From: Melioribacteraceae bacterium | Lineage (GTDB): Bacteria; Bacteroidota; Ignavibacteria; Ignavibacteriales; Melioribacteraceae | Length of the DNA: 64,000 bases | Assembly: GCA_022181065.1 (NCBI GenBank) | Contig: BQMY01000120.1 | Location: 1 to 64,000, forward strand | Reading direction: 5' to 3' | Shown: positions 20,495-54,474 of the stretch, in pieces | Position numbering within the stretch: position 1 is the stretch's first letter | Layout of the letters: each line of letters opens with the position of its first letter | Notes under the pieces: model-generated | The model's input: only the letters and a program-made list of their open reading frames with translations | What the model was told of the DNA's origin: nothing | The model's database searches: none | Program-made: the position numbers and the translations under genes

Positions 20495-21046
20495 TCAGAT
20501 CATTTCACTCATTAGTTCGGGTCTCGGACGAGGGATTACTACCTTATTCACAAGCATACCTTTTTCGCCAATAACCAAAGCACCTGCATCAACAGCGCTT
20601 GTAACAGCTGCAACATCACCCGTAATAGTACAAAAAGCTTTTCCACCTAATGCCATCGCGAGTCTGATTTCAATAATCCGAACCGTTGCCGCTTTTGCCG
20701 CAGCGTCTGCCCCTTCTATCAACGAAGCTACCGAGAACGCCTCCAAAATACCGAGAGCTTCTAAATCTATAGCGTTGCTGTGACCTGATAATGCAGGAAA
20801 TACATCGGGATGCACATTTGGAATAATGAAAGTGTCAATCACTGCGAATTCAACTTGTTCAGCTGCTGATTCGACTGATGATCTTACAGCTGCTACATCA
20901 CCACCAATTAACACCATATATTTTCCCGAGCAGATTGAACGAGAGATAATCAACTCAACCTGAGAAGTTTTCAACATTATATCTGCCGCCTGCATACCAG
21001 CGGCTATACTTGTTAATTCTATTAATCCTATTGAATTCATTTCCAT
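20495..21046 (-). CDS. PduT-like tandem-BMC-domain microcompartment shell protein
   Basis: A 183-residue trimeric (BMC-T) shell protein with two BMC domains, about residues 4-90 and 98-180. It closely follows Salmonella PduT: N-terminal GLIELTSIAAGMQAADIML, mid GDVAAV in both halves, and C-terminal VIPRPRPEL. Cys39 in SICSGK aligns with the pore cysteine (Cys38) of PduT that holds a 4Fe-4S cluster, so electron passage through the shell is plausible. SD GAAAGG lies 7 bases before the ATG. It is downstream of a PduS-like gene, matching the known PduS-PduT interaction. No other shell or signature-enzyme gene is in the window. Confidence 0.93.
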   Translation of the reverse strand: MEMNSIGLIELTSIAAGMQAADIMLKTSQVELIISRSICSGKYMVLIGGDVAAVRSSVESAAEQVEFAVIDTFIIPNVHPDVFPALSGHSNAIDLEALGILEAFSVASLIEGADAAAKAATVRIIEIRLAMALGGKAFCTITGDVAAVTSAVDAGALVIGEKGMLVNKVVIPRPRPELMSEMI

Positions 21047-21091
21047 AATGTTACCTTTCTGTGTCTTGAGAAAGTGAATATTTTATTTTGT

Positions 21092-21133
21092 CCTCCTACT
21101 AAGGAGGTGGATTTCATCGAGAGTCGGAAGACT
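21092..21133. repeat. Two small palindromes between pduS-like and pduT-like genes
   Basis: The 127-base gap holds cctcct-acta-aggagg (21092-21107, 6-bp stem) and agtc-ggaa-gact (21122-21133, 4-bp stem with a GNRA-type loop). On the transcribed (minus) strand the first contains an AGGAGG that is too far (about 45 bases) from the pduT-like ATG to be its SD. It could be an RNA-processing or attenuation hairpin, or one copy of a dispersed intergenic repeat. I see no second copy in the window. Confidence 0.4.
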
Positions 21134-21173
21134 GAGGATGATTTTTCTAATCTTCTGAAACTGTAAAACCAAA

Positions 21174-22493
21174 TTAGTTTTTACTGATCATGATATATTC
21201 TTCATTAACATGTGTGACCATTCCATCAATTGACGCATGAATATTAGCGCCAAGTTTTCCATCCGGGATTTGACCAATTAGGTCACCCTTGCTCACGTTT
21301 GCACCAATCTTTACTAAAGCTTCAGCAGGAGCTCCGACATGCTGTTTAAGATAAATCTTAACTCTGTCAGGAGTTTTAATATCATTTATAAATGGAGTCG
21401 GTTTTTCAAATCTTGTAAGGTCCAGCCTTTTCATTAACTGTTTAAGAGGTACTCTCCTTCCTTCCTTAATAGGGTGAACTTTAACCGGTTTTTTCTGGTC
21501 ATATTTTGGTAACCCCTGATCACGCATCTCCTGTTTACTTTGATCACAGGCTTCTCTTGGGTACAAGTCTTCTGGACAGGCATACAACGAACATAACCCG
21601 CATGAACAGCATAAATCGGCATACTGATTCCATAATTCCTTACCTGAAGTAGTAAAAACCAGCGAACGCATCACTTTATGAGGCTGAACATCATAACCAA
21701 GTAGATAACGGGGACAAAACTCCGTACAATAACTGCACTGATCACAAGCCGATTTACCAATTCGGTTCATATCCTCTTTGGGTCTTTCCATCCTTTTGAC
21801 GAGATAATGATCATGTGGCAAAACAATTATTCCCGCGCAGGTTTTCGTAACAACTTCATTCTCGTCATAGGTCAATTTACCCATAAGAATACCACTTACA
21901 AAGATCGCATAGTCCGGAGTGGTAGTTCCGCCAACAATTTCGATAAGCTCGGCAAAACTTGTACCGACCGGAACAAAAAATGAAGAAGGATTTTTCACCA
22001 CACCGGTAACACAAACAAATTTTTCTGTTACAGGAATATCCTCCAGGGCATTTGAAACATTATAAAAAGTTTCAACATTGTTGACCAGACATCCCACATC
22101 TAACGGGATACCGTGCGGAGGTATCAGACGGCGGGTGCCTTCATAAACAAGTTCGTACTCATCCCCCGATGGATAAAAATCGCCGAGTACACACATATCA
22201 ATCGAAGTATCCACGGCACTATCTTCAATCTTTTCAATCGCCCTTGCGTTTTTCCCCTTAATTCCGAATATACCTTTTTTAGCTCCGGTTGCTTCGATCA
22301 TCAAATTCATACCATTGACGATTTGCTCGGGGAAGTTAAGCATTATTTCAAAATCTTTATGGAGCAACGGTTCACATTCCGCGCCGTTTGCCAAAACAAA
22401 GTCAACGTTGCTTCCGGCTTTTACGTGAGTTGGAAATCCGGCACCTCCGGCACCTACAACACCGGCTTTTTTAATTTTATCAGCCAGACTCAT
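21174..22493 (-). CDS. PduS-like flavo-iron-sulfur protein (RnfC-type)
   Basis: A 439-residue protein like PduS, the microcompartment cobalamin reductase, built on the RnfC/Nqo1 fold. Features are an N-terminal Gly-rich loop GVVGAGGAGFPTHVK (FMN/NADH site), the SLBB-like middle, and two 4Fe-4S motifs: C250-x2-C253-x2-C256-x3-C260 and C295-x2-C298-x2-C301-x4-C306. A barrel-sandwich C-terminal part follows (GAPAEALVKIGANVSKGDLIG). It could reduce cobalamin or pass electrons to the PduT-like shell cluster. AAGGA lies 6 bases before the ATG. The ATG sits inside the end of the upstream SpoIIE-type phosphatase gene (14-base overlap), an unexpected coupling. Confidence 0.9.
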   Translation of the reverse strand: MSLADKIKKAGVVGAGGAGFPTHVKAGSNVDFVLANGAECEPLLHKDFEIMLNFPEQIVNGMNLMIEATGAKKGIFGIKGKNARAIEKIEDSAVDTSIDMCVLGDFYPSGDEYELVYEGTRRLIPPHGIPLDVGCLVNNVETFYNVSNALEDIPVTEKFVCVTGVVKNPSSFFVPVGTSFAELIEIVGGTTTPDYAIFVSGILMGKLTYDENEVVTKTCAGIIVLPHDHYLVKRMERPKEDMNRIGKSACDQCSYCTEFCPRYLLGYDVQPHKVMRSLVFTTSGKELWNQYADLCCSCGLCSLYACPEDLYPREACDQSKQEMRDQGLPKYDQKKPVKVHPIKEGRRVPLKQLMKRLDLTRFEKPTPFINDIKTPDRVKIYLKQHVGAPAEALVKIGANVSKGDLIGQIPDGKLGANIHASIDGMVTHVNEEYIMISKN

Positions 22494-40656: not shown

Positions 40657-41169
40657 ATGTTTAAACATAAACTAAACATAAAAATACCAACCTTACGCGA
40701 GCTACTAAGGAGAGATACGTTAAAAAGGTATTTTTCCAAATTTATTGGATTAAAGGCTTCCCCACATAAGTTGGCCTGGAGTGTGGCAATTGGCGTTTTC
40801 ATTGGATTTTTTATTCCAATTGGGTTTCAGTCCTTCTTCATAATTCCGTTAGCTCTCGCTCTTGAAGTAAATCTTATAGTGGCTTACATCAGTACGCTTG
40901 TTTCCAACCCGATTACAGCAATACCCATGTATTATGTTGCGGTGAATGTTGGTCAGCGCCTAACAGGAATTGAAGTATTGTGGAGTAATTTCGAAAAAGT
41001 ATTTAGTGAATTTTCGTTTAGTGCTTTGATGAATCTGGGAACAGATAGTCTTATAGTATTTTTTACCGGCTCTCTTTTTCTAGGTTTAATATTTGCTGCC
41101 CTGCTCTACATTTTTACATATAAAGTGGTCAGTTACTACCGTAAGACTACTAATCTTTATTCCCCTTAG
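40657..41169 (+). CDS. DUF2062 membrane protein
   Basis: A 170-residue integral membrane protein with the DUF2062 pattern: SPHKLAWSVAIGVFIGFFIPIGFQS and the second helix pair with SNPITAIPMYY. Three to four spans are predicted. Function is unknown. DUF2062 proteins are often near or fused to glycosyltransferases. The 250 bases upstream are AT-rich with no other feature I can name. Its 3' end overlaps the convergent sensor gene by 4 bases. Confidence 0.8.
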   Translation: MFKHKLNIKIPTLRELLRRDTLKRYFSKFIGLKASPHKLAWSVAIGVFIGFFIPIGFQSFFIIPLALALEVNLIVAYISTLVSNPITAIPMYYVAVNVGQRLTGIEVLWSNFEKVFSEFSFSALMNLGTDSLIVFFTGSLFLGLIFAALLYIFTYKVVSYYRKTTNLYSP

Positions 41170-43244
41170 AATACCTTCTTGAGTGCAGCGTATAAACTGT
41201 CTCGCAGAACCGGTTTTGAAATAAAATCGCTAAATCCGGCCGCAATGAATTTTTCTTTATCACCCGGTAACACATAAGCGGTAACAGCAATAATCGGGAT
41301 TTTTTCATAACCTTCAAGCTGGCGAATAATTCGCAATGCGTCAAGTCCGTTATATTCACCCTGAAGGTTAATATCCATAACGATAAAATCAAACTTGTCT
41401 TTTTCAATTATAGGGAAAGCCTTTTCAAGGCTATTGGCAACTTCTATTTTTTTAAGGTCTTTCATCTGGACCTTAAACAATATCTGTGAATCGACTTGAT
41501 CCTCAAGATATAAACAAGTGAGGTTCTTTAAGTCAACCTGAGAGGAAGTTTTCTTTTGTGTTGGCTCATACTGTTTCCTGGGTTGAGCCGGTTTTTGAGG
41601 TGGTTTTATAAAGTCTTCATCCGGTAGATCATCGAATGAGGCCTCTTCCTCTGCCTCTTCTTCAACAGGATCAGGTAAAGCAGCTTTGTAACTGTTTTTA
41701 ATAGAGATGGAAGGAGCAGGAGTACTTTTCTTCGGCTTTGGAGGAGGAGCCTGAGTTTTAACATCCTCCATAAAGGGTTCGAATTCTACAGTTTCATCTT
41801 CATTATCAAGGAATTCTTCTACCGCAAGTACATTAGGAAAGATGATACCATATTCAGCTGGTACACCACCCTTTTTAATGAGCCCTGTTCTTGCTTTTAA
41901 TATTGATAATAATTTCCTCAGTAATCGTACACTGAATCTGCTGAAACCATAACGTTGCCTTATGATGTTTTCGTCAAGCGAAAATATATCTCTGTATCCG
42001 TTGACCAAGTCTTGCGTAATTGCCGATTTATCATCCTTAATACTTATAACAAAATTGTCGTTATCATATGATTGAGCAGATAAATAAATTTTACTCATCT
42101 GAGTTAGCTGCATACCAAAATTCAAATAACTTGAAATGAATGTAAGCATTTTGTGCTTATCAGTTGTAAAATTCAATGAAGATGAAATTTTTCCATAATT
42201 GAACGCAACTTTGTTAAGCTCAACACTCTTTTTGATATTAACTTCAATCTCATCAATGAGATCAACAAACAATATTTTTGAAGTTTCTATTTTTGACGCG
42301 CCCTGAGAAAGCGCGGCATATTCACCGGCAGTGTCCATAATCTGAAGAAGCATCTTCTGGTTTTCTTGAATTATCTCCCTCGATTCTTCCTGTTCTTCGG
42401 TAGGATTATTAATCGATTCAATTAATTCCTGGCCGAATCCGATAATTACATTTATAGGTGTAAGAATTTCATGAAATAAATGAGACAAGAACGAGCTGTC
42501 AAGTTCACCACCCCCGGAACCGGCCGGAGCCTGAATAATTTTTTCCTCTACCTCACCGATCTGAATAATAAACGCAAAAGTATCGGTCTCACCCTTAAAA
42601 TCCTTTATCGGTGAAACATCAACTTTAGCTTTTATAGTGTCACCACCCTTTTTGAGCAATGTAACTTCCAGCGATTTCTTCTCCTGTAAACCTGCACGGA
42701 AAACTGATGAGTTAAAAACAGATTTATCTGATTGACTCAAGAAGGAGTTAATTGGTGTTTTATTAACTTCTGATGGGCTATAACCAAGTTTTTTTAAGAA
42801 GGATTTATTGGAATAAGTTATAAAACCATGTATATCGGTTGTAACAACGAGATCACTGGAATTTTCAAAGACATATTTATACAATGAAAGATTCTTTTCC
42901 TTCTCGAGATCATTCGTTACATCTTTAACAAGGTTGAAATGAGCTTTCCTGCCGTTATAGTCAATCGATGTTTTACTGATCTTCACAAGAATTGAGTTTC
43001 CATCTTTTCTTTTGTGACGAAACGGACCAATAAACTCATTTTCTGTAACATGATTATTGGAAGATTCGATCAATGTCTGGATATCTTCCGGAGCATACAA
43101 GTCAGTCAGATCCATATGGAGGAACTCATCTTTACCGTAGCCGTAAAGCTTGAGTGTAGCGTCATTCATATCCAGGAATTTGAGATTTTCCAAATCATAG
43201 ATGAATATCGGTTCAGGACTGGTCTGTAATAGTATGTCGTACAT
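41166..43244 (-). CDS. PAS-PAS-HisKA-REC hybrid sensor with degenerate ATPase domain
   Basis: A 692-residue cytosolic hybrid sensor. Two PAS domains (about 4-110 and 125-230) precede a HisKA-like helix with H258 in FHEILTPIN. The following ATPase region (about 350-475) lacks the N-box Asn, the DxGxG loop (reads KDDKSAIT) and the GxGLGL motif (YGFSRFSVRLL), so ATP binding looks lost. A Pro/Glu-rich linker leads to an intact receiver (about 570-692) with LED acid pair, phosphoacceptor Asp624 in VMDINLQG, Thr in AVTAY and Lys in SKPV. It may receive or relay phosphate rather than autophosphorylate. It is last in the leftward exopolysaccharide-like cluster. Confidence 0.88.
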   Translation of the reverse strand: MYDILLQTSPEPIFIYDLENLKFLDMNDATLKLYGYGKDEFLHMDLTDLYAPEDIQTLIESSNNHVTENEFIGPFRHKRKDGNSILVKISKTSIDYNGRKAHFNLVKDVTNDLEKEKNLSLYKYVFENSSDLVVTTDIHGFITYSNKSFLKKLGYSPSEVNKTPINSFLSQSDKSVFNSSVFRAGLQEKKSLEVTLLKKGGDTIKAKVDVSPIKDFKGETDTFAFIIQIGEVEEKIIQAPAGSGGGELDSSFLSHLFHEILTPINVIIGFGQELIESINNPTEEQEESREIIQENQKMLLQIMDTAGEYAALSQGASKIETSKILFVDLIDEIEVNIKKSVELNKVAFNYGKISSSLNFTTDKHKMLTFISSYLNFGMQLTQMSKIYLSAQSYDNDNFVISIKDDKSAITQDLVNGYRDIFSLDENIIRQRYGFSRFSVRLLRKLLSILKARTGLIKKGGVPAEYGIIFPNVLAVEEFLDNEDETVEFEPFMEDVKTQAPPPKPKKSTPAPSISIKNSYKAALPDPVEEEAEEEASFDDLPDEDFIKPPQKPAQPRKQYEPTQKKTSSQVDLKNLTCLYLEDQVDSQILFKVQMKDLKKIEVANSLEKAFPIIEKDKFDFIVMDINLQGEYNGLDALRIIRQLEGYEKIPIIAVTAYVLPGDKEKFIAAGFSDFISKPVLRDSLYAALKKVF

Positions 43245-43324
43245 GTCTTCTTCTTACTGTTATAGTCTAGTTTGTTTTACAGTGCAATTAAAGAAAAATC
43301 AACTGTAAGTCCAAATTTGATACG

Positions 43325-45142
43325 TCAGAATGGAATCTGAATTATTACCTCATTTGAGTAACTTGAATAATCTGTAGAGTTTCTGGCTCTAACTCGATAC
43401 ACATATTTGTTACCCCTTTGAACAGTATCATCGGTGTATGTTGTTGTACCAGCCGCCAATGTTTCCGAGAGTGACCAGTTTGAAGTATCAAAAAGTTTAC
43501 GCTGCAATTCAAATGCTAACTCGTTACTCGAATTGTCTCTCCAGTTAAGGATTACACTTTGGTTAAGCGTATCGTAGGCGGCATCCAGATCTGTAGGACG
43601 AATTATATTACCTGTACCTCCCGCGGTAGAAACAATATTGGAAAACGGCAGTTTCGTTGTTTGAGTATAAGCTCTCACTTTGTAATAATATATTGAAGTT
43701 GAATCTTGTACCTCATCTAAAAATGCGCTGACATTAGTATCAAAAATCTGATACAAGGCAAAATCATTGCTGTTTTGCCTGCGATGAAGTTCAAATCCGG
43801 CCTCATCGGTTACATTATAATCCCATTCAAGGAAATATTGTTTACCAAAATCAAATTCGGTAATTGTGAGATCGGGTGGCAGCACAGGCACATAAGCTGT
43901 ATCGCTGTTCGAGTAAGGTGTGTAGTACCCGCCAATAGTGTAAAACCGCGCTCTGTAATAATATACTCGGTCGTTCGATAATGAAGAGTCGGTAAAGGAA
44001 TTTGTAAAGCCATCAACCGCGCCTATACCCGTATAATCATTATCTCCTTCCAAACGTCTTTCAACGAATGTATTGTTCACTTCACCACTCGGGTTATTAT
44101 TATCCCATGTAATTACCACTTTTTTGAGTGAGGTACTGAATGTAGCTTTCAGATTTGCGGGAGAAAAATAATCCCGTTCCTGTGTGGTTACAGAAGCAAT
44201 TGCCGACCATGCGCTCTGCGATTCCCCGGTATAGGAAGCAACCCTGTAATTATATTTCGTACTTGCAATCAGGTCAGAATCCATATACTCATTGAGGTCA
44301 GAAGGTATAACCGCTATCTGTGACCAGGTATTGTCAGCATCAAGTTTACGCTGAATCTTAAACCCAAGTATATTAGCCGCACTGCTCGACCAACTAAGAA
44401 GTACATATGAAGCACCTAAAGATTGTGCCTGAATGTTTGTTGGAGCAGTACCACCAGCACTTCCTTCTGTAGAAACCTCATTACTGAAGTTTGAATTACC
44501 ATACTGGTTGAGAGCTAAAACTTTGTAGTAATAAACGATAAATTCTGAAAGATCGGTATCATCCCAGCTTATTGTATTTGCCGGAAGAATTTTAATAGGT
44601 CGATATTCTCCATTGGGCGTATCTTTACGATAAACCTGATAGTTGGTTTCTCTTACTGAATTATCACTCCACAACAGGTTAACAGCATTATCACTTTTCT
44701 TGATAAGCTGCAGACTGGTGGGCGCTTCAGGTGGATCGGTATTTTTCTTTACATAAATATTAACCATATCCCCGGAAGAACCACTCTCTCCATCCAGATT
44801 GAATGCGGAGAGTTGATATCCGACAGTCTGTCCAATATAGGTTGAATCAACTACAAGATATAATTCGGGAAATTCATTATCCTCGATATAAAATATTTCA
44901 TTGGAATCTGCCATTGAAGTATAAAGCTGCATGTAGTCTAAACCATCACCACCCGATTTATCAATCGCTGAATATTCAATCAAAGTCCGACCGGTTTTTA
45001 TAGTATCACCTGTAACGGGGTACTCAATAACAACATTGGGTACACTTGTGGAAGTTGTAGGCGTGGTAATAGAATCAACACACCCGTAAACAATAGCGAA
45101 CGCGAGAACAAATCCCGCCAATTTTATGCTGATTTTTTTCAT
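43325..45142 (-). CDS. Lipoprotein with five FN3 domains
   Basis: A 605-residue lipoprotein. Lipobox VYGC gives lipidation at Cys21. Residues about 30-130 are a beta-rich unknown domain. Five fibronectin type III repeats follow, at about 137-225, 232-319, 325-413, 420-506 and 513-605. Each has the W core, YxVYR-type strand, and YYYKV/YRVRA signature. Anchored in a membrane, it could bind glycan or act as a scaffold. It sits 36 bases downstream of the NodB-like gene in the exopolysaccharide-like cluster. Confidence 0.85.
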   Translation of the reverse strand: MKKISIKLAGFVLAFAIVYGCVDSITTPTTSTSVPNVVIEYPVTGDTIKTGRTLIEYSAIDKSGGDGLDYMQLYTSMADSNEIFYIEDNEFPELYLVVDSTYIGQTVGYQLSAFNLDGESGSSGDMVNIYVKKNTDPPEAPTSLQLIKKSDNAVNLLWSDNSVRETNYQVYRKDTPNGEYRPIKILPANTISWDDTDLSEFIVYYYKVLALNQYGNSNFSNEVSTEGSAGGTAPTNIQAQSLGASYVLLSWSSSAANILGFKIQRKLDADNTWSQIAVIPSDLNEYMDSDLIASTKYNYRVASYTGESQSAWSAIASVTTQERDYFSPANLKATFSTSLKKVVITWDNNNPSGEVNNTFVERRLEGDNDYTGIGAVDGFTNSFTDSSLSNDRVYYYRARFYTIGGYYTPYSNSDTAYVPVLPPDLTITEFDFGKQYFLEWDYNVTDEAGFELHRRQNSNDFALYQIFDTNVSAFLDEVQDSTSIYYYKVRAYTQTTKLPFSNIVSTAGGTGNIIRPTDLDAAYDTLNQSVILNWRDNSSNELAFELQRKLFDTSNWSLSETLAAGTTTYTDDTVQRGNKYVYRVRARNSTDYSSYSNEVIIQIPF

Positions 45143-45178
45143 TTTCTATGGCTTAATTTTCTTATTATTAAACCGAAT

Positions 45179-47080
45179 CTAACCCGAAATATTTTCATAA
45201 TCAATTAAGAAAGAACGTGACTCACCCTCACCCAAATTTTGTATATACATATACAGGGTATTATTTATGGGTTTAAATTCAAATTCCGGAATCGTTGTAT
45301 TAACGAGATCAGAAGAGATATCCACATTTTGAACCCGCTTGTTAAGATCGATTTCAATAACGAAGTTATCAATTCTTTCTTCCGCGAGATTTGTCACTTC
45401 CACTTCCATCCTGACTTTACTGCTTGTACTATATTCGAGTTCTATTCGTCCTCTTTTCATCCACCAGGTTTTAAGGTCTTCGATGGATGTCAACCACATA
45501 TTTTTACTTCGTGTATATTTAAGTACATCATCCACAACGCCAACATATTCCGGACGTAACTGATAAGCTGTATGTACCTTAAAAACAAAAAGTCCACCCT
45601 CAAAAACAATTCTGTCAATATCTTCCTGATAGGTATAAACCTGAAAATCCTGTTGTCGGAGATTATATCGCCTTACTATTTCATAATCATCGCGAGCGGT
45701 TTTGGTAATCTGCAAAATCGCCTGATCATTCCTGATCTTTACTTCAGGAACGGATCTGTCTGTAAGTGAATCGGTTACCACAAAGTCTATTTCATTATTC
45801 GACATAGCCTGCAAAGTCGCGTCATCGTAAAATCCATAATAGGGCATAATACCATGAACCTGCTTTCCAACAAGTTCCTCCATCTGGTTAATGCCACCCT
45901 CAACAATTTTAAATTGTTCTTCCTGGGGAAATAATTTATTTACAGTATCTTTTGCTGATTCAAGATAACCAATGTCTATAATAGCACCAAACTCACCGTA
46001 CTTAGCTAATCCCTTTATAAGGTTAGCGTTCTGCTGGGCAATCGCGGGAGTCATAAAAAAAGTAGCAGGATATCTTGAAGACTTCAACAACTCGGTTAGA
46101 TTCCTTACATTTGCTATATCTTCATCAAGCGTTGGGATAAAGACCGACGCTGCTTCGTAAGGTGGCGGCCAGTCACGAACAAACGCTATAGGTTCATAAG
46201 TAAGCCAGCTTATAGAATTTCTAAACAGCCTGTCATAATTAATAAAGTCCACAGGTGAATCACCAACGACTGAATTTAATTCAAATCCGTACCACACAAA
46301 CCGACCTTCGCCATAATTACCATAGGCAATACCGGCACTTTGTTGTATAGCCTCTCTCACAAGCCCGGCTTCCCTTCGGAAATCATACCAGAAACTAACC
46401 TGTTTGGTTCGCGGCTCCAGAATCTCGGCATATATAGGTCGATCCCAGGTAGCGATTTTAAGTGTAAATCCCGTAGGAATTCCGGCAGTAATCGGCAGGT
46501 TCCCACGCAAAGTGTGTATTTTATAAACTTCACGCGGTTCTATTTCTTTGGAAAAATTCAATCCGAAAACTTCGGTAAAAAATTGCCAGCCTCTCCACTT
46601 TCCTTCATTAGAGTAAGACGCAGTACCTCCGGTCGCCAAAACACTACCGCCAAGCTCCATATATCGCTTTAACTGAACAATTTCCCGGTCACTTAACGCT
46701 TTTGCTCCGGGCAGAATTATCAGATCGTATTCAAAATGCTCACCAAGTTCAATTGTTTGATCGGTAATAATATCATAATAAAGTTTGGAACCCTTGGCAA
46801 AACTTTCCCAGGCATCAACGTTATCATTAACCCAGGTGCTACCTTCAGGTAAAATAGCTTCCCAATACTCTGGATAGAGGATTGCAATATTGCTCTCCTT
46901 TTCAACAAACAAATAGGTTAAATTTTCAGGTGTCGGCAAAATATCCTTGAGATCAAAATTCCCATAGATACTTTTAAGAATCAGCAAAAATATAAGAACC
47001 CCGGCAACCAGTAATACTAATCCGGAAAAAAATACAATTGCATAGTTTACACTAACACCCTTAAAATTGCCTACCGCCAC
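45179..47080 (-). CDS. Membrane-anchored Rossmann / NodB-like / beta-sandwich protein (PelA-like layout)
   Basis: A 633-residue protein with one N-terminal span (about 12-36). Residues about 60-295 resemble a GATase1-like or flavodoxin-like Rossmann domain (YDLIILPGAKALS, GGSVLATGG). Residues about 300-535 resemble a NodB polysaccharide deacetylase: motif 1 is TLDED (317-321), but motif 2, normally with metal-binding histidines, reads GAIIDIG (365-371), and motif 3 is MPYYG. Loss of the histidines suggests an inactive or altered deacetylase. Residues about 545-633 are a beta-sandwich. Order matches the middle and C-terminal part of PelA. Start is a GTG with GAGGAT upstream, overlapping the previous gene by 10 bases. 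Confidence 0.75.
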   Translation of the reverse strand: MAVGNFKGVSVNYAIVFFSGLVLLVAGVLIFLLILKSIYGNFDLKDILPTPENLTYLFVEKESNIAILYPEYWEAILPEGSTWVNDNVDAWESFAKGSKLYYDIITDQTIELGEHFEYDLIILPGAKALSDREIVQLKRYMELGGSVLATGGTASYSNEGKWRGWQFFTEVFGLNFSKEIEPREVYKIHTLRGNLPITAGIPTGFTLKIATWDRPIYAEILEPRTKQVSFWYDFRREAGLVREAIQQSAGIAYGNYGEGRFVWYGFELNSVVGDSPVDFINYDRLFRNSISWLTYEPIAFVRDWPPPYEAASVFIPTLDEDIANVRNLTELLKSSRYPATFFMTPAIAQQNANLIKGLAKYGEFGAIIDIGYLESAKDTVNKLFPQEEQFKIVEGGINQMEELVGKQVHGIMPYYGFYDDATLQAMSNNEIDFVVTDSLTDRSVPEVKIRNDQAILQITKTARDDYEIVRRYNLRQQDFQVYTYQEDIDRIVFEGGLFVFKVHTAYQLRPEYVGVVDDVLKYTRSKNMWLTSIEDLKTWWMKRGRIELEYSTSSKVRMEVEVTNLAEERIDNFVIEIDLNKRVQNVDISSDLVNTTIPEFEFKPINNTLYMYIQNLGEGESRSFLIDYENISG

Positions 47081-47592
47081 TGCAAGTTATCCTCTTTGTT
47101 CTTGTTTTCGCGTTGTGCACTACCATTTTCAGATTCACTTGTATAACGCATAAACTTACCTCTTCTACCTGTATAGCGCTCGGATTCCATAGTTTCAGGA
47201 CCTTTTTTCCTGAAAGAAGTTGTTTCCTCGGCAAATGTAGAAGTAGGTTGTGTAACGAACGTAGGTCGGGTATATCCGGAAGTTGCACCTGTTCTTCTGT
47301 CCTCAAATGTGCTTTTGAAAAGAGTGGATTTATCACCCTGGGTACGAGTACCGGCGAATGTACCGGTTTTCTCCTCTGTTTTAAACCCTTCCCCTGTTTT
47401 CGCCATTCTCGGTTCAGTAAGTACTTGTGCCGGTTCGACAAGTTCCGCAGGAATACTTTCAGGTGGCTTGGCCTTGGCGGCTCGACCCCTTCGTTCCCTG
47501 ACTTTATACAAAATATACGCACCAACAGCTAATACAAAAGTAGATATTGTTGATACCAAAATAATTAGCGAAAGTATAGGTATGAGTTCCAT
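47071..47592 (-). CDS. Small single-pass membrane protein with disordered tail
   Basis: A 173-residue protein with one membrane span (about 5-28), a basic juxtamembrane stretch (KVRERRGRAAKAK) and a Thr/Arg/Glu-rich tail without clear fold. No family recognised. It lies between the GT2 synthase and the NodB-like gene, with a 10-base overlap with the latter. By position it could be a synthase partner, as PgaD is for PgaC, but the sequence itself does not show homology. SD GGGAGA lies 4 bases before the ATG. Confidence 0.7.
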   Translation of the reverse strand: MELIPILSLIILVSTISTFVLAVGAYILYKVRERRGRAAKAKPPESIPAELVEPAQVLTEPRMAKTGEGFKTEEKTGTFAGTRTQGDKSTLFKSTFEDRRTGATSGYTRPTFVTQPTSTFAEETTSFRKKGPETMESERYTGRRGKFMRYTSESENGSAQRENKNKEDNLQWR

Positions 47593-47610
47593 ATCTCTCC
47601 CTGTAGTCCT

Positions 47611-49032
47611 TTATTTTTTAGCCTGGAGACCGGTTCTTTCCAACTTGCCCCAGTTCATTTCAATTCCAAGAAATTCTTCAATTGTTGCCATCGCCTTCGT
47701 AACATCAATTACCAAAACGAAAAAGAGTCGATAAACCAGTGCATAGGGAATTAGACGCAATTCCTCCTTTTCAACCGCAATACAGTATATTGCAGCCAAC
47801 AAGTCAAGGATGGTAATTCCGAACCACCAGAATACAATCAAACTCGTCATACCGTTAAGTAAACCAACAGCAATAAAAAAGATGTTACCTAAAATATTCA
47901 TTGCCGGCCAGGCCAGTGATTCAAACGCCATAGCCCATAATACAAGTGAGTTATTAAAATTAAGTGTAGGATTGATCAAATGCTCTTTGTGCTTCCTAAT
48001 CGCCTGAATAATCCCGCGTGTCCATCTGTATCTCTGTTTGAGAAGTTGCATCAGTTTTAAAGGTGCTTCTGTATAAGATATGGCATTTGGTTCGTAATTT
48101 ATCTTCCACCCCGAAGCAAGAATCTTCAATGTCATATCTGCGTCTTCAGCGAAAGTATCACTGGTGTAGAAACCACCATCAGAAATTGCTTTTTTCCTGA
48201 AAAACCCAATTGGTCCCGGAATAATATTCACCATTCTGGTTATACCCTGAGCAGAACGCGCTAAATTCAAACCTTCAATATATTCAAGTGCTTGCAGGTC
48301 TGTAAGTATCTGCCCCCTGTTTAGAACCTTAACATTGCCGGCTACAGCTCCAACTGCCGGATCAACAAAGTGCCTGGCACCCAATTTCAATGATTGTTCC
48401 GAAAGCATCGCATCTCCATCCACACAGAGCACAAAATCAGACTTCGAGTGCCTGATTCCGGCATTCAACGCCTTTGCTTTGCCGCCATTAGGTTTTGTGA
48501 TCATGGAAACTTTAATCTTGTTATATTTCCCCTGCTGATACCCAACCATAGATTCACCAACCTCGGCTGTATTATCTTTGGAACCGTCATTTATAATGAT
48601 AACTTCATAATTTGGATAATCCAGCTCCACGAGTGATTCCAGACTATCTCTTAATGTAACACCCTCATTATACGCCGGCATCATTATAGAAATAAACGGG
48701 AAATAGTCATCAAACTCCTCAACAGTGTACTTGGTGATAAATAGATATGCCAGTATCAAAATTGATGCATATCTGAAGAGAAGTGAGAACAAAAATAGTA
48801 TCAGCGCGAGAACAGTAGCATAAACAACCAATCCATCAAATGAAAGTACTGTGAACGGAAGTGTAAATACGATAATCGCCAACATAACAACGGTAAGTAC
48901 CCCCGAGACGATCATCATGCGAATTTTTTCTTCCTCAAAATTTCGTTCTTCAGGTACATTTTCCCTGTTATCAACCATTATCGTACGTTTTACGATATTA
49001 TTATTTTTTTTAGGTTTTTCTTCTTCCATCAT
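47611..49032 (-). CDS. Processive family 2 glycosyltransferase (polysaccharide synthase)
   Basis: A 473-residue inner-membrane synthase. A charged N-terminus is followed by two to three spans (about 39-100), the GT-A domain (about 110-345) and three C-terminal spans. Catalytic motifs are D149 (NDGS), D205-G-D207, E296-D297 and Q333-R-Y-R-W337, the set of processive beta-glycan synthases such as BcsA, PgaC and HasA. It lacks a PilZ domain, so it is closer in size and design to PgaC. Sugar specificity cannot be read from these motifs. Start is the first of two tandem ATGs. The 200-base AT-rich gap upstream may hold its own promoter. Confidence 0.9.
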   Translation of the reverse strand: MMEEEKPKKNNNIVKRTIMVDNRENVPEERNFEEEKIRMMIVSGVLTVVMLAIIVFTLPFTVLSFDGLVVYATVLALILFLFSLLFRYASILILAYLFITKYTVEEFDDYFPFISIMMPAYNEGVTLRDSLESLVELDYPNYEVIIINDGSKDNTAEVGESMVGYQQGKYNKIKVSMITKPNGGKAKALNAGIRHSKSDFVLCVDGDAMLSEQSLKLGARHFVDPAVGAVAGNVKVLNRGQILTDLQALEYIEGLNLARSAQGITRMVNIIPGPIGFFRKKAISDGGFYTSDTFAEDADMTLKILASGWKINYEPNAISYTEAPLKLMQLLKQRYRWTRGIIQAIRKHKEHLINPTLNFNNSLVLWAMAFESLAWPAMNILGNIFFIAVGLLNGMTSLIVFWWFGITILDLLAAIYCIAVEKEELRLIPYALVYRLFFVLVIDVTKAMATIEEFLGIEMNWGKLERTGLQAKK

Positions 49033-49232
49033 TCACACGGATAATTAAGTTGTAAATGCAATTATAATAAAGTCTTAAAGCATTTTAATCAAAACTGATT
49101 CTTCGAAGTTAACTCTAAATATATAAAATAATTGTACTTAGTTATTGATAATCAGTAAATATAAACAATATGACGCATAGTAAAAATAGAAAATATAACA
49201 ATCAATATATTTAATTCTACCGTTGCTCCGGA
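49033..49232 (-). other. AT-rich intergenic gap, possible internal promoter
   Basis: 200 bases between the TPR/barrel gene and the GT2 gene, both leftward. Very AT-rich, with short inverted repeats but no strong terminator. Nothing resembles an RNA gene. It is the only long gap inside the cluster, so a second promoter for the GT2-to-sensor half is likely. Confidence 0.3.
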
Positions 49233-51440
49233 TTACAATATTTGATACCTGAAGCTAATATTCAGAAACCTTGATGTATATTCATTCAGAAATCGGTATT
49301 CCCAATTTAAACCACCCGAAGCTGTTAAACTTAAATCAGGAGTCAAATTTCCCTTTGCATCAAAAGAAAATCTCTTCGTAAAGAGAGTATTTTCAGGAAC
49401 AATTCCCAACTCGGCATGAGCCCGGATATAAAACGGTTCAAAATAGTAATAAGGTGTATCAAATGTAATTTTGTGTTCTATATAATCCTGAGGGGTATAA
49501 TAGTAATTTAGTACCCGCTTGTAATCTGCGTAAAAGTATTCATATCCGGCAAAATATTCGTTGAATACTCTTATTTTCCCGATAACCGACATGTTATTGC
49601 CGATATTCTCTATTACGTTGAGTAAATTTGGATCGGCTGGTCGGAATGATTCAGTGGTAATCAGATTGTATTTCGCGCCTGCAATCATACCTCTGGGAAA
49701 AAAAACAAAAGCTTCACCTCCATACAATTCAGACCTGATCCTGTTGAAAGTAAGTTGGTAATGTCTGAAAACTTTTGAAGCATCCCCGCTATAATAATAA
49801 ATTTCTCCATTTATCAATTCAGAATTATATTTCAGAGAAATATCGGCTTCAAAATGGTGTTCTTTGCTTCCAAATAACATTGAGCCAAAATAAGTTTCGA
49901 GTGTGATAAACTCAACAGGTGAAAATTTCAATATACCACCATATTCGGTATAATTCTGCCCACCATTCAGGTTTTCCAGAGACACTCTCTGAATTATCGC
50001 ACCCAATTTCAGAATACGCAACAAATTTATTTCAGTTGCTAAACCTCCACTTAGCCTTACAAATCCGTCACCATCTGAATATTGACTAAACTTGGGGAAT
50101 ACCTCCAAACCTTTCTGAAATCCCCATGAATATCCCACTATATTAGGGAAATATCCAAAGGTTCTCTTGTGAAAGTCTGAAATCTGATCCCTTTCATCAA
50201 GAATATAGAATGATGTTGGATATAGATCGGCAGCCAGCTGATAATATCGTTTAGCTTCATAGAATATACCTGCCTGATTATACGTTCTCGCAAGTCCAAC
50301 GAGAACATCTTCATCTTCCGGATATCTCTCTTTCAAATCCAGGTAATCATCCAGCGCGAGAAAGTTTTCCTGTATCTGCTGATATGAGTGAGCTCTTTTT
50401 CTCAAATCATCATCGTTATAAATATAATTAGAGAAATAATCATCGTAAAGGTCTGCTGCAATATCATAATTGCCCGCGCAGTAATTTGCTTCGGCGGCTT
50501 CTCGCAGGAGAAGAGAATCAGGTTCATATTCTTCAAGATATTTATTAAAAAGGGTGGAAGAGTTAGCACATTCCCCATACAACAAAGCATCCCTTGCTTC
50601 TTCCAGAAGGTTTCCTTTTTCTTCTTTCTTCTCTACAAAACCCAACTGTTCCAGATACAATAGATTGGAAAGATCGGGATCGAGAAAATCATCCCCCTCA
50701 TAACTCTGCAAATAATCTATCGCGGCTTCTTCATTTTTTTTGTTTTTTTCAATGTAGGCAAGATATATTAATGATTCATCCTTCGGGTTTGAGTAGAAAA
50801 AATCGTCGTATCTTTTAGTAAATTTTTGAAGCATTGCTGCCAATTTGTACATTGTATAGTTGGCTTCTTCCTCTTCAGGATACTTCATCATGAACAAAGA
50901 TAATTCTTTGTAAGCCTCTTCATTTTTACCGAGCGTTAAATATAACTCTATAAGTTTTAACCTGATTTCCTTATCATCCGGTTCCAACCGCAAATATTCG
51001 GTTAACACTCTCTCACTATGGTCAAACTCACCCATTTCTTTTTCATTACTATATATCAACTCGGCTGTCGCCCTATTTACCGGCATGGATTCCAGCAGCA
51101 AAAGATATCGGCTATTCTCGCGCGCAAGCACAGTTTCATACTCGCTTTTAACCCGTTCATAATAGAGTGTAATTTCGCCATCATCTGTAATTGGGATAAG
51201 ATAGGAAAAGTGTAATAATGAATTTTTATAATCTTTTTTAAGATAAAATTGACGCGCAAGTTCAAACCTGGCTTCCGTATTCATTGGGTCTTGAATCAAA
51301 GCGGTGTACAATTCATTAAATGAACCATACTCCCCGGCAGATTGAGCGCAGATTAATGATCCTTTAACCGGGAAGACCGGTAAAAATGTCAGGAAGATCA
51401 GCGATATGGCAAGAATTGATTTAACAAACTTTCCATTCAT
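49233..51440 (-). CDS. TPR plus outer-membrane beta-barrel protein (BcsC/PgaA/PelB-like exporter)
   Basis: A 735-residue secreted protein. Signal peptide about 1-30. Residues about 40-450 are TPR helical repeats (for example TEARFELARQFYLKKDYKNSLLHF and KEIRLKLIELYLTLGKNEEAY). From about 465 a beta-barrel is visible as alternating aromatic strands (GYSWGFQKGLEVFP, ITFDTPYYYFEPFYIRAH) that end in FRYQIL. TPR plus barrel is the hallmark of polysaccharide secretins BcsC, PgaA and PelB. Its ATG overlaps the KaiC-like gene's stop by one base. Confidence 0.82.
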   Translation of the reverse strand: MNGKFVKSILAISLIFLTFLPVFPVKGSLICAQSAGEYGSFNELYTALIQDPMNTEARFELARQFYLKKDYKNSLLHFSYLIPITDDGEITLYYERVKSEYETVLARENSRYLLLLESMPVNRATAELIYSNEKEMGEFDHSERVLTEYLRLEPDDKEIRLKLIELYLTLGKNEEAYKELSLFMMKYPEEEEANYTMYKLAAMLQKFTKRYDDFFYSNPKDESLIYLAYIEKNKKNEEAAIDYLQSYEGDDFLDPDLSNLLYLEQLGFVEKKEEKGNLLEEARDALLYGECANSSTLFNKYLEEYEPDSLLLREAAEANYCAGNYDIAADLYDDYFSNYIYNDDDLRKRAHSYQQIQENFLALDDYLDLKERYPEDEDVLVGLARTYNQAGIFYEAKRYYQLAADLYPTSFYILDERDQISDFHKRTFGYFPNIVGYSWGFQKGLEVFPKFSQYSDGDGFVRLSGGLATEINLLRILKLGAIIQRVSLENLNGGQNYTEYGGILKFSPVEFITLETYFGSMLFGSKEHHFEADISLKYNSELINGEIYYYSGDASKVFRHYQLTFNRIRSELYGGEAFVFFPRGMIAGAKYNLITTESFRPADPNLLNVIENIGNNMSVIGKIRVFNEYFAGYEYFYADYKRVLNYYYTPQDYIEHKITFDTPYYYFEPFYIRAHAELGIVPENTLFTKRFSFDAKGNLTPDLSLTASGGLNWEYRFLNEYTSRFLNISFRYQIL

Positions 51441-52723
51441 TATTTCATAACTTTATTCAGAGAAATATACCGCTGGTTTGATGTATTATCAGATGCCTGA
51501 ATATAATCCATCATAATTTCGGAGTTGTCGGCTGATTCATTTACTTCAATATTTAACAAAGATATAAATTCTTTCACGGTATTAAGATAGTTCTCGTCAG
51601 CACTGGGGAGGTTTTTCTGAACCTTTTTAAGAAGCGCGTCAACACTTGCCTTATCACTTCTTACTACCAGCACAACAATTTTATTATCCACGATACAAAT
51701 TTTATCTTTTTTATCTGTTGCGGTTCTAACCGCGTTTTGAATCTGATTCAAAGAGAGTAATCCCTTTACCTGGGCAGCCGGATCAAGCTTGAAAGAAAGC
51801 AAATTAAACATCTGACCGGTACTCTGATAAAGAGCGATTTGGTTGTTGAGTATCAGAAGGAAATCGTCATATTCATATACATTGGAGATACCAAACTTAT
51901 CCCCTTCCGCTTTACCAAATTTTGACTTGATCAAATCAGCAACTTTCGAATCATCGCTCTCTTCCGATTTTGTGATAGTCGGTTTTTCTTCAACTTCTTC
52001 TTCTTCAATACCGGCGTACTCAACTACTACACCTTTTTTTGGTACTATCTTGAATACAGATTCAAATTGACCCTCGGAATGACCAACATTTGGAGTAATT
52101 ACAACATTACCGCCAAAAAATCTGTTATCGATTTTCTCTTCCGACTTTTTAAGCTTTATTGATCCGGTTACGTAATTAGCGAGAACATCTACAATAGATT
52201 GAGCTTTTGGTGTTGCAGGTTCACCAACAACGAACAAGCTGGTTATATCCCTGTCTTCAATAACCTCGAGAGTATGAAGAAATGAATCTCGTAAAAGATC
52301 CAGATTACGAAAACCGATATAAGGTGTAATTTCATCAAAAATTATTCTCGCGGGCTTGTATTGATTTACAACGGTTATAATATCATTAAAATATTCGATC
52401 AGGTAATCATCGGCATTGTAAGTATCATAGATATAATTCGGCGGGGATATCCTCACAACAATAATGAGGTTCTGACTCATATACTGTTGAATATCAAAAT
52501 TAACCGACGCCGCCTGGATCATTAAATCTTTCGGACGCATGTTTGTGAAAAGCAGGCATACATCGTTGTTTTTTGCAGCCTCAAGCGCAAACTGAAGACC
52601 AACCAAAGTTCTGCCGGATTTTTTCGGACCAATAAGCAGATAACTTCCGCCGATGTAAATACCACCCCAGGCCTTGTCAATAAATCTGAAACCGGATGGA
52701 ATTAATCTTATGCCACGATTCAT
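51440..52723 (-). CDS. KaiC/RecA-like protein with broken Walker A and degenerate GGDEF-like domain
   Basis: A 427-residue cytosolic protein. Residues 1-230 have the KaiC/Rad55 fold, but Walker A is GPKKSGRT (32-39) with Arg38 in place of the conserved Lys; Walker B is IIFDE (D130-E131). An acidic linker (about 238-262) leads to residues about 285-375, whose pattern (FNLLSFKL, KDKICIVDNKIVVLVVRSD, ALLKKVQKNLP) fits a GGDEF fold without the GGDEF signature or RxxD site. Loss of NTPase plus degenerate GGDEF is the design of BcsE, the c-di-GMP-binding cofactor of cellulose synthase. Homology to BcsE is not claimed. It is coupled to the TPR/barrel gene. Confidence 0.72.
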   Translation of the reverse strand: MNRGIRLIPSGFRFIDKAWGGIYIGGSYLLIGPKKSGRTLVGLQFALEAAKNNDVCLLFTNMRPKDLMIQAASVNFDIQQYMSQNLIIVVRISPPNYIYDTYNADDYLIEYFNDIITVVNQYKPARIIFDEITPYIGFRNLDLLRDSFLHTLEVIEDRDITSLFVVGEPATPKAQSIVDVLANYVTGSIKLKKSEEKIDNRFFGGNVVITPNVGHSEGQFESVFKIVPKKGVVVEYAGIEEEEVEEKPTITKSEESDDSKVADLIKSKFGKAEGDKFGISNVYEYDDFLLILNNQIALYQSTGQMFNLLSFKLDPAAQVKGLLSLNQIQNAVRTATDKKDKICIVDNKIVVLVVRSDKASVDALLKKVQKNLPSADENYLNTVKEFISLLNIEVNESADNSEIMMDYIQASDNTSNQRYISLNKVMK

Positions 52724-52796
52724 AAAATATTTTTTCCTTACTGCCTGATTGTATAATTCAATTAATAAAAATATTAAAAAAAAGATAAAAAAGTTA

Positions 52797-52817
52797 TGTA
52801 AAACTAATAATTTTACA
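52797..52817 (-). terminator. Weak terminator-like hairpin after the GH9 gene
   Basis: A 7-bp, mostly A-T stem (tgtaaaa / ttttaca, 52797-52803 with 52811-52817) has a 7-base loop. On the minus strand it is followed by T-rich sequence. With only one G-C pair it would end transcription partially at best. Confidence 0.35.
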
Positions 52818-52824
52818 AAACAGT

Positions 52825-54474
52825 CTATCTTCTGGAATAATGGCCCATCACAAAGATGGCAGTTGCATTTGCGGTAATAGTCGGTTCATTACTAACATAA
52901 TCCATTTTATCATCTCTATAATAGGAACTATCTGTCTGAAACTCAATATACTGATCGGCTCCTTCAAAAGGGATATTATATGCATCGAGAAATTCCCTTG
53001 TCACCGGTCCGGCAGCAAAACCACCCGGCAAGTGCCCATCCATAAAATGCGCAACCTGGTGATGGAAATTTTCGGAGTATTTTGCGCCAATACCATGAAT
53101 GAAAGATAATCCCCATGGATTTTTACCAAGAACATAATCCCGCTGTGAAACAAGTAAAGAGTCGAATGAATTATCCCCGGTAAGCGACTCATAAAGAATC
53201 ACCTGCAATGATATACCCATAAGCGTATTATTAGTACCCCATGAATAAGCAGCACCTTCCTCGAAAATATTGCTATTCCGGGTATTATTAAAATGAATTA
53301 AATTATTCTTGATATATTTAGTAAAACTTTCATCATGCAACGCGATTTTGTAATGCGCAAGTGAGTTAATATTCCCCCAACTCCACCAATAGTCCGAGTT
53401 TGCAAGATTACCCAATAACTTCGCGTCAGTTAAATATTTGCTGTCACCAGTTGTTATGTAAAGCTCTATCGCACCAAGAGCAGCCTTACCTTCCCATTTA
53501 TTATCGAGATACATTCCGGTCCCGGAACTATCGATATCATCAACTTCATTTATTATCGAGAACTTCTGCTCCGCCCTTCTCAAACATTCAGCCGCGTATT
53601 CTTCATTGCCAAACCTTGACTTCCATACTCTGGCTGCGCTCGCCATAGTTGCCGAATAAATTCCGATCAAGTTTTTGCCAATTCCGGTAAATCCGGGTCT
53701 GTCAAATGCTAAAGGATCATCTTCGGGCATTCTCCAGCCAACTTCATGATCACGTAAATCCTGAACTTGTGTTATAAATCGCTTCTCACGGTAGTCGGCT
53801 CTTATTAGCCAGTCCAGACCGATTTTAGCCTCCTCAAGAATATCGGGCGCGCCATTTTTATCGAGATCAAAACCAAACTTTTGATTATCATGTTCATAAG
53901 CAAACAAAAGCAGATATGTTGTGTAAGCAGTGGTATTAAAAAACTTTATATAGTCAGCCGCGTCATGCCAGCCACCAGTTACATCCACCTGCTTGTCTAA
54001 AGTTCTCCCATTAAAAATTAATGACGTTGCGTCGGCAATATGACATACCTCATGCCACTCGGGGTTTGTATATCCACATCGTTGAATTTTATAGAACTGC
54101 ATCAAGGTATCAACGACGTCCGCAAAAAAATCATCTCCGATTTCAAACGGATATGACGCAGCATCCCCTATTTTGACAATATATTTCCCTTGTTTATCCA
54201 ATCTTGTAAAATCGAATTTATAAGAGAACTTAAAATTGGTATGCTCAAACTTGTTTTTTTCCAGATTGCCAGTAAGACTGGCTTTACCGGTAGATACATC
54301 TATTACTTCGAATTTTTTATTGTCCAATCTTAATTTCGATAAAACAACACCGGTTTTGATATCATCTTTCAGGTAGCCAACTTGTGATACTCTGATATGG
54401 GAATCGCCATTTTTACAACTTACAACAGTTACCGATAGCAATGAAATAGCTAATACAAAAAGGAGTTTTCTCAT
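52825..54474 (-). CDS. Glycoside hydrolase family 9 lipoprotein (endoglucanase-type)
   Basis: A 549-residue lipoprotein when started at the ATG at 54474, which gives a signal peptide with lipobox VVSC (Cys20). A frame to 54513 adds 13 residues and spoils the signal. Residues about 25-115 form the N-terminal Ig-like CelD_N domain. GH9 follows, with the base motif GGWHDAADY (D171, D174), LGKNPWGLSFIHGIG, the substrate HH of FHHQ, and the acid Glu530 in NEPTI. GH9 enzymes cut beta-1,4-glucans. Here it lies 101 bases upstream of the exopolysaccharide-like genes on the same strand, where Bcs operons keep the GH8 cellulase BcsZ. Confidence 0.9.
   Translation of the reverse strand: MRKLLFVLAISLLSVTVVSCKNGDSHIRVSQVGYLKDDIKTGVVLSKLRLDNKKFEVIDVSTGKASLTGNLEKNKFEHTNFKFSYKFDFTRLDKQGKYIVKIGDAASYPFEIGDDFFADVVDTLMQFYKIQRCGYTNPEWHEVCHIADATSLIFNGRTLDKQVDVTGGWHDAADYIKFFNTTAYTTYLLLFAYEHDNQKFGFDLDKNGAPDILEEAKIGLDWLIRADYREKRFITQVQDLRDHEVGWRMPEDDPLAFDRPGFTGIGKNLIGIYSATMASAARVWKSRFGNEEYAAECLRRAEQKFSIINEVDDIDSSGTGMYLDNKWEGKAALGAIELYITTGDSKYLTDAKLLGNLANSDYWWSWGNINSLAHYKIALHDESFTKYIKNNLIHFNNTRNSNIFEEGAAYSWGTNNTLMGISLQVILYESLTGDNSFDSLLVSQRDYVLGKNPWGLSFIHGIGAKYSENFHHQVAHFMDGHLPGGFAAGPVTREFLDAYNIPFEGADQYIEFQTDSSYYRDDKMDYVSNEPTITANATAIFVMGHYSRR

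Follow-up and report, generated by a model that had tools for sequence, protein, structure and literature searches.

The window analysed here (64,000 nucleotides, positions 1 to 64,000 of contig BQMY01000120.1, assembly GCA_022181065.1, from a Melioribacteraceae bacterium) carries at 41166-54474 an operon of eight leftward genes, which probably specify the synthesis and export of a polysaccharide. All eight open reading frames (ORFs) announced by the initial annotation were in place, and are listed here in order of transcription.

52825..54474, minus strand: g8, lipoprotein with CelD_N Ig-like and GH9 glucanase domains (Pfam GH9 9e-77, CelD_N 3e-16; lipobox VVSC)
51440..52723, minus strand: g7, KaiC/RecA-like N-terminal domain (1-235), linker and degenerate GGDEF domain (Pfam KaiC 6e-22; AlphaFold2 model; profiles)
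49233..51440, minus strand: g6, predicted outer-membrane exporter, TPR plus 16-strand beta-barrel (AlphaFold2 model, fold matches)
49033..49232, minus strand: 200-bp gap between g6 and g5, position of an SGNH esterase/acyltransferase-like gene in some relatives
47611..49032, minus strand: g5, processive-type GT2 synthase (Pfam GT2 1e-27)
47071..47592, minus strand: g4, bitopic protein: transmembrane (TM) helix, variable linker, conserved C-terminal motif region (71-row alignment)
45179..47080, minus strand: g3, membrane-anchored protein with GH42-trimerisation/GATase-like and NodB-like domains (profile versus PDB)
43325..45142, minus strand: g2, fibronectin type III (FN3) protein with a signal/lipoprotein-like N-terminus (Pfam fn3 1.6e-20; N-terminal hydrophobic segment)
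41166..43244, minus strand: g1, hybrid sensor with PAS-PAS-HisKA-REC architecture and no TM segment (Pfam)

Intergenic distances from g8 to g1 were 101, -1, 200, 18, -10, 36 and 80 bp, the pairs g7-g6 and g4-g3 thus overlapping; the one frame read through the g6-g5 gap of the window contained no long frame. Pfam domains and lipobox agreed with the assignment of g8 as a GH9 glucanase lipoprotein. Protein g2 had been described as a lipoprotein with five FN3 domains; fn3 was recovered, in four stretches passing Pfam, and the strict lipobox pattern was not found. The hybrid sensor architecture of g1 was likewise recovered except for its HATPase, which gave no match at E<=1 in the window protein and matched in one of three relatives at E<=0.01. 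The window g1 measured 692 amino acids (aa), against 1010-1078 aa in three relatives.

Scanning contigs with the g3 alignment gave 162 matched stretches, 120 of which were confirmed; the best 80 were kept and represented 79 loci, namely 65 Ignavibacteria-side loci (L138-L202) and 14 Rhodothermales-type or related ones (L124-L137, where L131 displayed a g3 paralogue only). Neighbours were counted at loci with enough flank and with bit-score floors applied. On the Ignavibacteria side, the small TM gene was present at 64 of 64 loci, the GT2 gene at 55 of 55, the porin and KaiC-like genes each at 44 of 45, the hybrid sensor at 47 of 47, the FN3 gene at 40 of 47, the GH9 gene at 37 of 45 (34 of 37 among loci with over 1.85 kb upstream of the KaiC-like gene) and an SGNH gene at 14 of 45. 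Rhodothermales-type loci displayed a NodB-like match above the floor in 12 of 14 cases, GT2 in 10 of 11, and KaiC-like and porin genes in eight of nine each. There, g4 was recovered by a frame-by-frame search at 10 of the 11 loci with GT2 (75-99 bits; the eleventh, L137, reached 13.5 bits), and at five of 11 by ORF calling, which preferred longer antisense frames. Because Rhodothermales-type loci keep only these five genes, they are regarded as the core of the operon (KaiC-like, porin, GT2, TM and NodB-like), to which Ignavibacteria add a shell of GH9, FN3 and sensor genes. Where the best 79 loci carried a phylum label, it was one of the Bacteroidota/Ignavibacteriota/Chlorobiota group (for two the label was only "bacterium" and for one "Bacterium BMS3Abin03"), and a plasmid search with g3 gave no match.

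Searches with g7 led to the same picture. At E<=0.001 a match was obtained in 52 of the 58 near relatives, and 35 of the 40 g7 loci considered (L039-L078) displayed the GT2, small TM and NodB-like genes in the same order, the porin gene missing from L078. Such a gene order across the order is more than a matter of chance neighbours; the neighbourhood check across Ignavibacteria, set beforehand as a refuting test, found the genes staying together. The g7 profile matched 60 of 395 sampled genomes of the phylum at E<=1e-15; near-full-length matches were confined to the order, and those outside it covered about the first half of the profile. At L054, L055, L061 and L073, KaiC-like and TPR porin genes were kept and other genes replaced the GT2, TM and NodB-like ones.

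The synthase g5 (473 aa) displayed two N-terminal and about three C-terminal hydrophobic segments. The D, DxD, ED and QRYRW motifs read in it by the initial annotation were kept, as DGS, DGD, ED and QRYRW, in all 72 family rows. Its best curated match was PgaC_IcaA (208 bits, cut-off 422.3), followed by NodC (107 bits) and CelA (69 bits, cut-off 699); since it fell below the PgaC_IcaA and CelA cut-offs it was filed with none of the three. A profile alignment with E. coli PgaC reached 100 % probability over 269 columns (hhalign). PilZ was not among the Pfam matches of g5. The alignment A5 comprised 55 relatives, none shorter than 400 aa. In a 26-row GT2 tree, in which only the nearest rows were read, g5 was closest to Melioribacteraceae-type rows; this tree held 23 of the 71 relatives' GT2s and no GT2 from the window's own genome, and the branch lengths of its E. 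coli rows, PgaC and BcsA, were 10.

The exporter g6 was modelled by AlphaFold2 with a predicted local distance difference test (pLDDT) score of 85.8, as a TPR superhelix followed by 16 strands (residues 445-733). Its top Foldseek match was BcsC (9b8a, 7.5e-12). VIA comparison placed three polysaccharide porins almost level: PgaA (4y25, Z 24.4, root mean square deviation (rmsd) 3.0, 270 aligned), PelB (9h80, Z 23.3, rmsd 3.9, 275 aligned) and BcsC (6tzk, Z 23.1, rmsd 3.3, 272 aligned), while the next, unrelated barrel, OmpG, reached Z 16.7. The TPR-barrel exporter of the initial annotation was therefore retained, its fold going with PgaA, PelB and BcsC and not with an unrelated family. It missed the PgaA equivalog model (25 versus a cut-off of 366.65 bits). 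The porin alignment A6 included 46 of 56 long porins. The window g6 was an outlier, with a median identity of 20 % to Ignavibacteria-side porins that shared 37 % among themselves. A 978-aa TPR porin of canonical type from the same family is encoded elsewhere in the window's own genome (L211:8767-11703, contig C76), next to genes that look cytochrome-like by eye; it contrasts with the g6 of the operon, a short protein of divergent sequence, and the neighbourhood of L215 was similar.

As regards the polymer, the Asp pair and the acid Glu of GH9 were kept in all 37 rows, window included. GH9 enzymes cut beta-1,4-glucans, and some members cut glucosamine polymers. In some operons an SGNH gene, whose product displays the motifs GDS, GxN and D-x-x-H, lay between porin and GT2. 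The SGNH family was present in all 19 Ignavibacteria-side genomes searched and MBOAT in 18 of them; neither was found in the two Rhodothermales-type genomes of the same searches. A second locus with SGNH and a small esterase gene was seen six times (L213, L216, L217, L248, L252 and L254); MBOAT occurred at five of these loci and a TPR porin paralogue at four, and the esterase belonged to the GDSL family in the one copy tested. The copy from the window's own genome lies on contig C79:

L248:8056-11713: second SGNH locus

By its gene content this second locus is likely an O-acetylation module, for this or another polymer. The SGNH and MBOAT genes suggest O-acetylation of the operon's polymer, on the presumption that operon and second locus are linked. 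The product would most likely be beta-1,4-linked, a glucan rather than a polymer of N-acetylglucosamine (GlcNAc), and O-acetylated by the SGNH/MBOAT module.

Regulation was addressed through g7. Its model (pLDDT 87.9) consisted of a KaiC fold (about residues 1-237, Z 27), a low-confidence linker (238-278) and a degenerate GGDEF domain (about 279-410) with the topology helix, strand, two helices, beta-hairpin, helix, helix, strand. The KaiC-like, degenerate GGDEF-like protein seen at the outset was thus borne out. Foldseek and VIA sampled the KaiC domain only, the 50 rows listed containing neither a GGDEF nor a BcsE chain, and the GGDEF claim is that of profiles and model topology. A 56-row profile of the g7 C-terminus was compared with a profile built from eight E. 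coli proteins of the GGDEF family and reached 92 % probability over 138 columns (score 48.3), against at most 2.4 % and 20.7 for 30 column-shuffled controls. The g7 C-terminus scored 31.5 (46 %) with a single GGDEF sequence, at most 16.8 with eight other domain profiles and at most 13.3 with BcsE. Weak Pfam matches were scattered among the 56 rows (GGDEF_2 in seven; BcsE in three, best E 0.0076); the window g7 gave no CBP_BcsE match at E<=1. The GGDEF motif was gone from all 56 rows. The RxxD motif of the I-site was kept in seven of nine Rhodothermales-type rows and in none of the 47 Ignavibacteria-side rows, window included, which mostly displayed KKDK. The Walker lysine was replaced by Arg in 38 of these 47 rows, again including the window, GK[ST] being kept in nine of 47 and absent from all nine Rhodothermales-type rows; Walker B DE was intact in 47 of 47.

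This layout recalls the control of bacterial cellulose synthesis. In PMC7439463, BcsE is described as an incompetent KaiC-like NTPase domain joined to a degenerate GGDEF domain, and in PMC11470070, BcsF as a single-helix peptide whose cytosolic tail recruits BcsE via beta-sheet complementation. By analogy, g7 resembles BcsE in its layout and g4 resembles BcsF. The small membrane protein of the initial annotation indeed has the layout of a bitopic protein with one TM helix: across 71 rows the helix was strongly conserved and the linker varied, while conservation returned in the end region, with N-terminal consensus MELIPILS..GAYILYK and C-terminal consensus KFmkYT.EGY..LkWR. We propose that g4 may tether g7, as BcsF does BcsE. 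PgaD was rejected as an identity for g4 (hhalign 0.3 %; hmmsearch E 0.015, 5.6 bits).

Machinery for cyclic diguanylate (c-di-GMP) was scarce in the host order. PilZ gave no match (E<=1e-4) in 146 genomes, and strong GGDEF (E<=1e-20) was encountered in one of the 146, a genome 85 % complete. EAL was absent from all nine Ignavibacteria-side genomes tested, each of which displayed one GGDEF-family protein above the Pfam cut-off (40-58 bits); the motif was broken at all 16 such GGDEF-family loci inspected. GGDEF-family proteins of about 620-650 aa were located at L219-L228 and L234-L239, one per Ignavibacteria-side genome. Among six tested Rhodothermales-type or related core genomes, only G226 displayed a GGDEF-EAL protein. 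The window g7 was rejected as a c-di-GMP receptor on its absent I-site together with these PilZ and GGDEF counts, and because of the same three results c-di-GMP control of the operon appears unlikely.

These counts bear directly on the possibility of a divergent Bcs system, in which plain or O-acetylated cellulose would be made under c-di-GMP control, GH9 would replace BcsZ, and g7 and g4 would be true homologues of BcsE and BcsF. The layout of the latter two, BcsC as top Foldseek match of g6, the GH9 gene adjoining the synthase and the SGNH/MBOAT genes (like those of acetylated cellulose) would all be in keeping with it. We nevertheless consider it improbable, given that PilZ was absent both from g5 and from 146 genomes of the order, that CelA reached 69 of 699 bits, that no BcsB match was obtained, and that the I-site (0 of 47 Ignavibacteria-side rows) and strong GGDEF (one of 146 genomes) were missing almost throughout.

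Protein g3 displayed one N-terminal TM segment. Its NodB match in the window fell just under the Pfam cut-off (22.8 versus 23.1 bits), accompanied by a GH42-trimerisation-like hint, and the 15-row profile A3, which included one motif-keeping paralogue (L070), matched CE4 deacetylases (4e-9) and a GH42 trimerisation domain (2e-7) in PDB. Of the Rossmann/NodB-like protein announced beforehand, the NodB-like fold therefore stood and the metal motif did not: none of 77 rows displayed H-x3-H in the NodB region, the motif-keeping paralogue L192 of the 78-row alignment being excluded, while a single His occurred near the motif position in nine of 78 rows, one of them the paralogue. An active deacetylase was therefore rejected for g3, and the argument that a deacetylase-like fold favours an amino sugar polymer was not supported. 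Protein g3 would rather be a binding or scaffold protein, presumably periplasmic. A g3 paralogue adjoining g3 (L070:5387-7204 and L192:11790-13607, probably one organism) keeps HGDDH; judging from this motif, that organism may have a functional deacetylase in it.

The same absence bears on a second alternative, a Pga system of the poly-N-acetylglucosamine (PNAG) type, with a GlcNAc polymer, a PgaC-type synthase, partial deacetylation and a PgaA-type porin. PgaC_IcaA as the best curated match of g5, the hhalign result with PgaC and PgaA as the best barrel by Z, although near-tied with PelB and BcsC, would speak for it. We hold it to be unlikely too: g5 remained under half of the PgaC cut-off and g6 at 25 of 367 bits with the PgaA model, g3 lacked the NodB metal motif, g4 was not PgaD-like, and GH9 cuts beta-1,4 linkages while PNAG is beta-1,6-linked. 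That g5 glycosylates a lipid or protein, with an unrelated porin and neighbours brought together by chance or common regulation, is very hard to reconcile with the gene order kept across families, with QRYRW in 72 of 72 rows and with Z values of 23-24 to polysaccharide porins against 16.7 for the next barrel, even if related GT2s include lipid glycosyltransferases (ceramide glucosyltransferase was among the weaker matches).

The operon thus displayed the general plan of synthase-dependent secretion, a processive-type GT2 and a TPR-barrel exporter in one cluster. We favour, with a probability of roughly 70 %, a synthase-dependent system secreting an exopolysaccharide that is beta-1,4-linked and probably O-acetylated, with BcsE/BcsF-like control responding to another signal. 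From the gene set, its conservation, the predicted folds and the active-site motifs kept or lost, we infer protein contacts, locations, signal and polymer as follows. The synthase g5 would polymerise a sugar nucleotide, the chain passing the inner membrane; g3, a membrane-anchored pseudo-NodB, would hold or guide it in the periplasm, and the porin g6 would export it. The GH9 lipoprotein g8 may trim or release the chain, as BcsZ does with cellulose. Protein g7 would act as a BcsE-like cytosolic regulator kept at the synthase by g4; because the order displays no recognisable c-di-GMP machinery it most likely answers another signal, perhaps by way of the hybrid histidine kinase g1.

Several observations weigh against this secretion system as formulated. 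The synthase scored best with GlcNAc-polymer synthases, which pulls away from a plain glucan. GH9, SGNH, FN3 and sensor genes were not adjacent to the Rhodothermales-type core (0/9, 0/9, 0/7 and 0/7, respectively), which makes them accessories, unless the polymer is a different one. No match to g7 at E<=0.001 was obtained in six of the 58 near relatives, and five of the 40 g7 loci (L054, L055, L061, L073 and L075) lacked the GT2, TM and NodB-like genes. The g3 profile did not match PgaB, and reached 0.2 % with one E. coli BcsB sequence (hhalign), a single-sequence comparison that a distant BcsB fold could escape. BcsE had been suggested as a search by the initial annotation, which did not name BcsF; the parallel held for the layout, and Pfam returned no BcsE match for the window g7. 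With E. coli BcsE, g7 reached hhalign probabilities of 0.3 % and 0.1-0.3 %, and homology at the sequence level was rejected. No REC-like domain was present in the model between the KaiC and GGDEF domains of g7, where only the linker lies. With Walker B intact, Ignavibacteria-side g7 may bind ATP, unlike BcsE, its degeneration being milder. Finally, G135, G386 and G069 kept RxxD without a GGDEF-EAL protein, which does not fit a neat story of c-di-GMP loss.

In a more specific proposal, g7 would be a BcsE-like KaiC-GGDEF pseudoenzyme on a BcsF-like tether, free of c-di-GMP and rewired to another signal (the nucleotide state of its KaiC domain or the hybrid kinase), the order having lost its c-di-GMP network and the Rhodothermales-type core representing an intermediate. 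It is put forward tentatively, at odds somewhat short of even.

The secretion system favoured here would provide a candidate matrix polymer for Ignavibacteria, which are common in reactors and subsurface biofilms. A BcsE/BcsF layout without visible c-di-GMP machinery makes the role of the GGDEF-like module testable, and the GH9 genes of Ignavibacteria should not automatically be taken for cellulose-degrading enzymes. The initial annotation had proposed an undescribed exopolysaccharide system; its combination of synthase and TPR barrel stood, its amino sugar argument did not, and no description of the operon was found in open-licence PMC papers, judged by title or start of abstract. In its abstract and main text, PMC7112194 names neither Ignavibacteri-, Melioribacter, Rhodotherm-, Bacteroidetes, Chlorobi nor Salinibacter.

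Some further features were noted. Window positions 20495-22493 encode what we take to be a microcompartment shell protein and an RnfC/PduS-like protein, and positions 10644-14516 a 1290-aa protein with, by eye, TPR and three consecutive CbxX-type AAA domains. On contig C86 of the same genome (L251:9531-10656), an MBOAT gene is accompanied by three adjacent short ORFs with the stretch MQYFVYIITNK in common, which looks GIY-YIG-like by eye.

Among known systems, the Type II Bcs system of E. coli, which makes phosphoethanolamine (pEtN) cellulose, shares a GT2, a TPR porin with 16 strands and a linked glucanase. According to PMC7439463 and PMC11470070, it further shares a BcsE-type protein with a KaiC/RecA-like NTPase, degenerate Walker A and degenerate GGDEF, and a bitopic protein with a cytosolic tail encoded nearby. 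The present operon differs from it by the lack of PilZ and of a BcsB match, with BcsQ, BcsR and BcsG not seen in the operon by Pfam, by GH9 in place of GH8, by a g7 without REC-like domain or I-site, and by its pseudo-NodB g3, hybrid kinase and FN3 protein. Pga offers the closest GT2 model, the best barrel Z (4y25) and a NodB fold in a partner protein; in contrast to it, the operon missed the PgaC and PgaA equivalog cut-offs, has lost the NodB metal motif and displayed no PgaD match. We know of no counterpart of GH9 or g7 in Pga. Pel is approached by the PelB-type barrel (9h80, Z 23.3) and by a degenerate GGDEF regulator; of the Pel-like parts claimed initially the porin fold stood, beside one weak PelD_GGDEF hint in one g7 family member (E 0.14). 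Pfam assigned none of the eight proteins to PelF, PelG or another Pel family. The synthase is a GT2, and the GGDEF of g7 is fused to a KaiC-like domain, where PelD has a membrane GAF protein instead. A possible parallel to the systems of acetylated cellulose (Wss) and to the clostridial Ccs systems lies in the SGNH of some operons and in the second SGNH/MBOAT locus; they differ in that the window operon is devoid of SGNH and that MBOAT is unlinked. By the tests made, the operon is a member of none of these, and is a system of new make-up in which a Bcs-like control module is combined with Bcs/Pga/Pel-like export.

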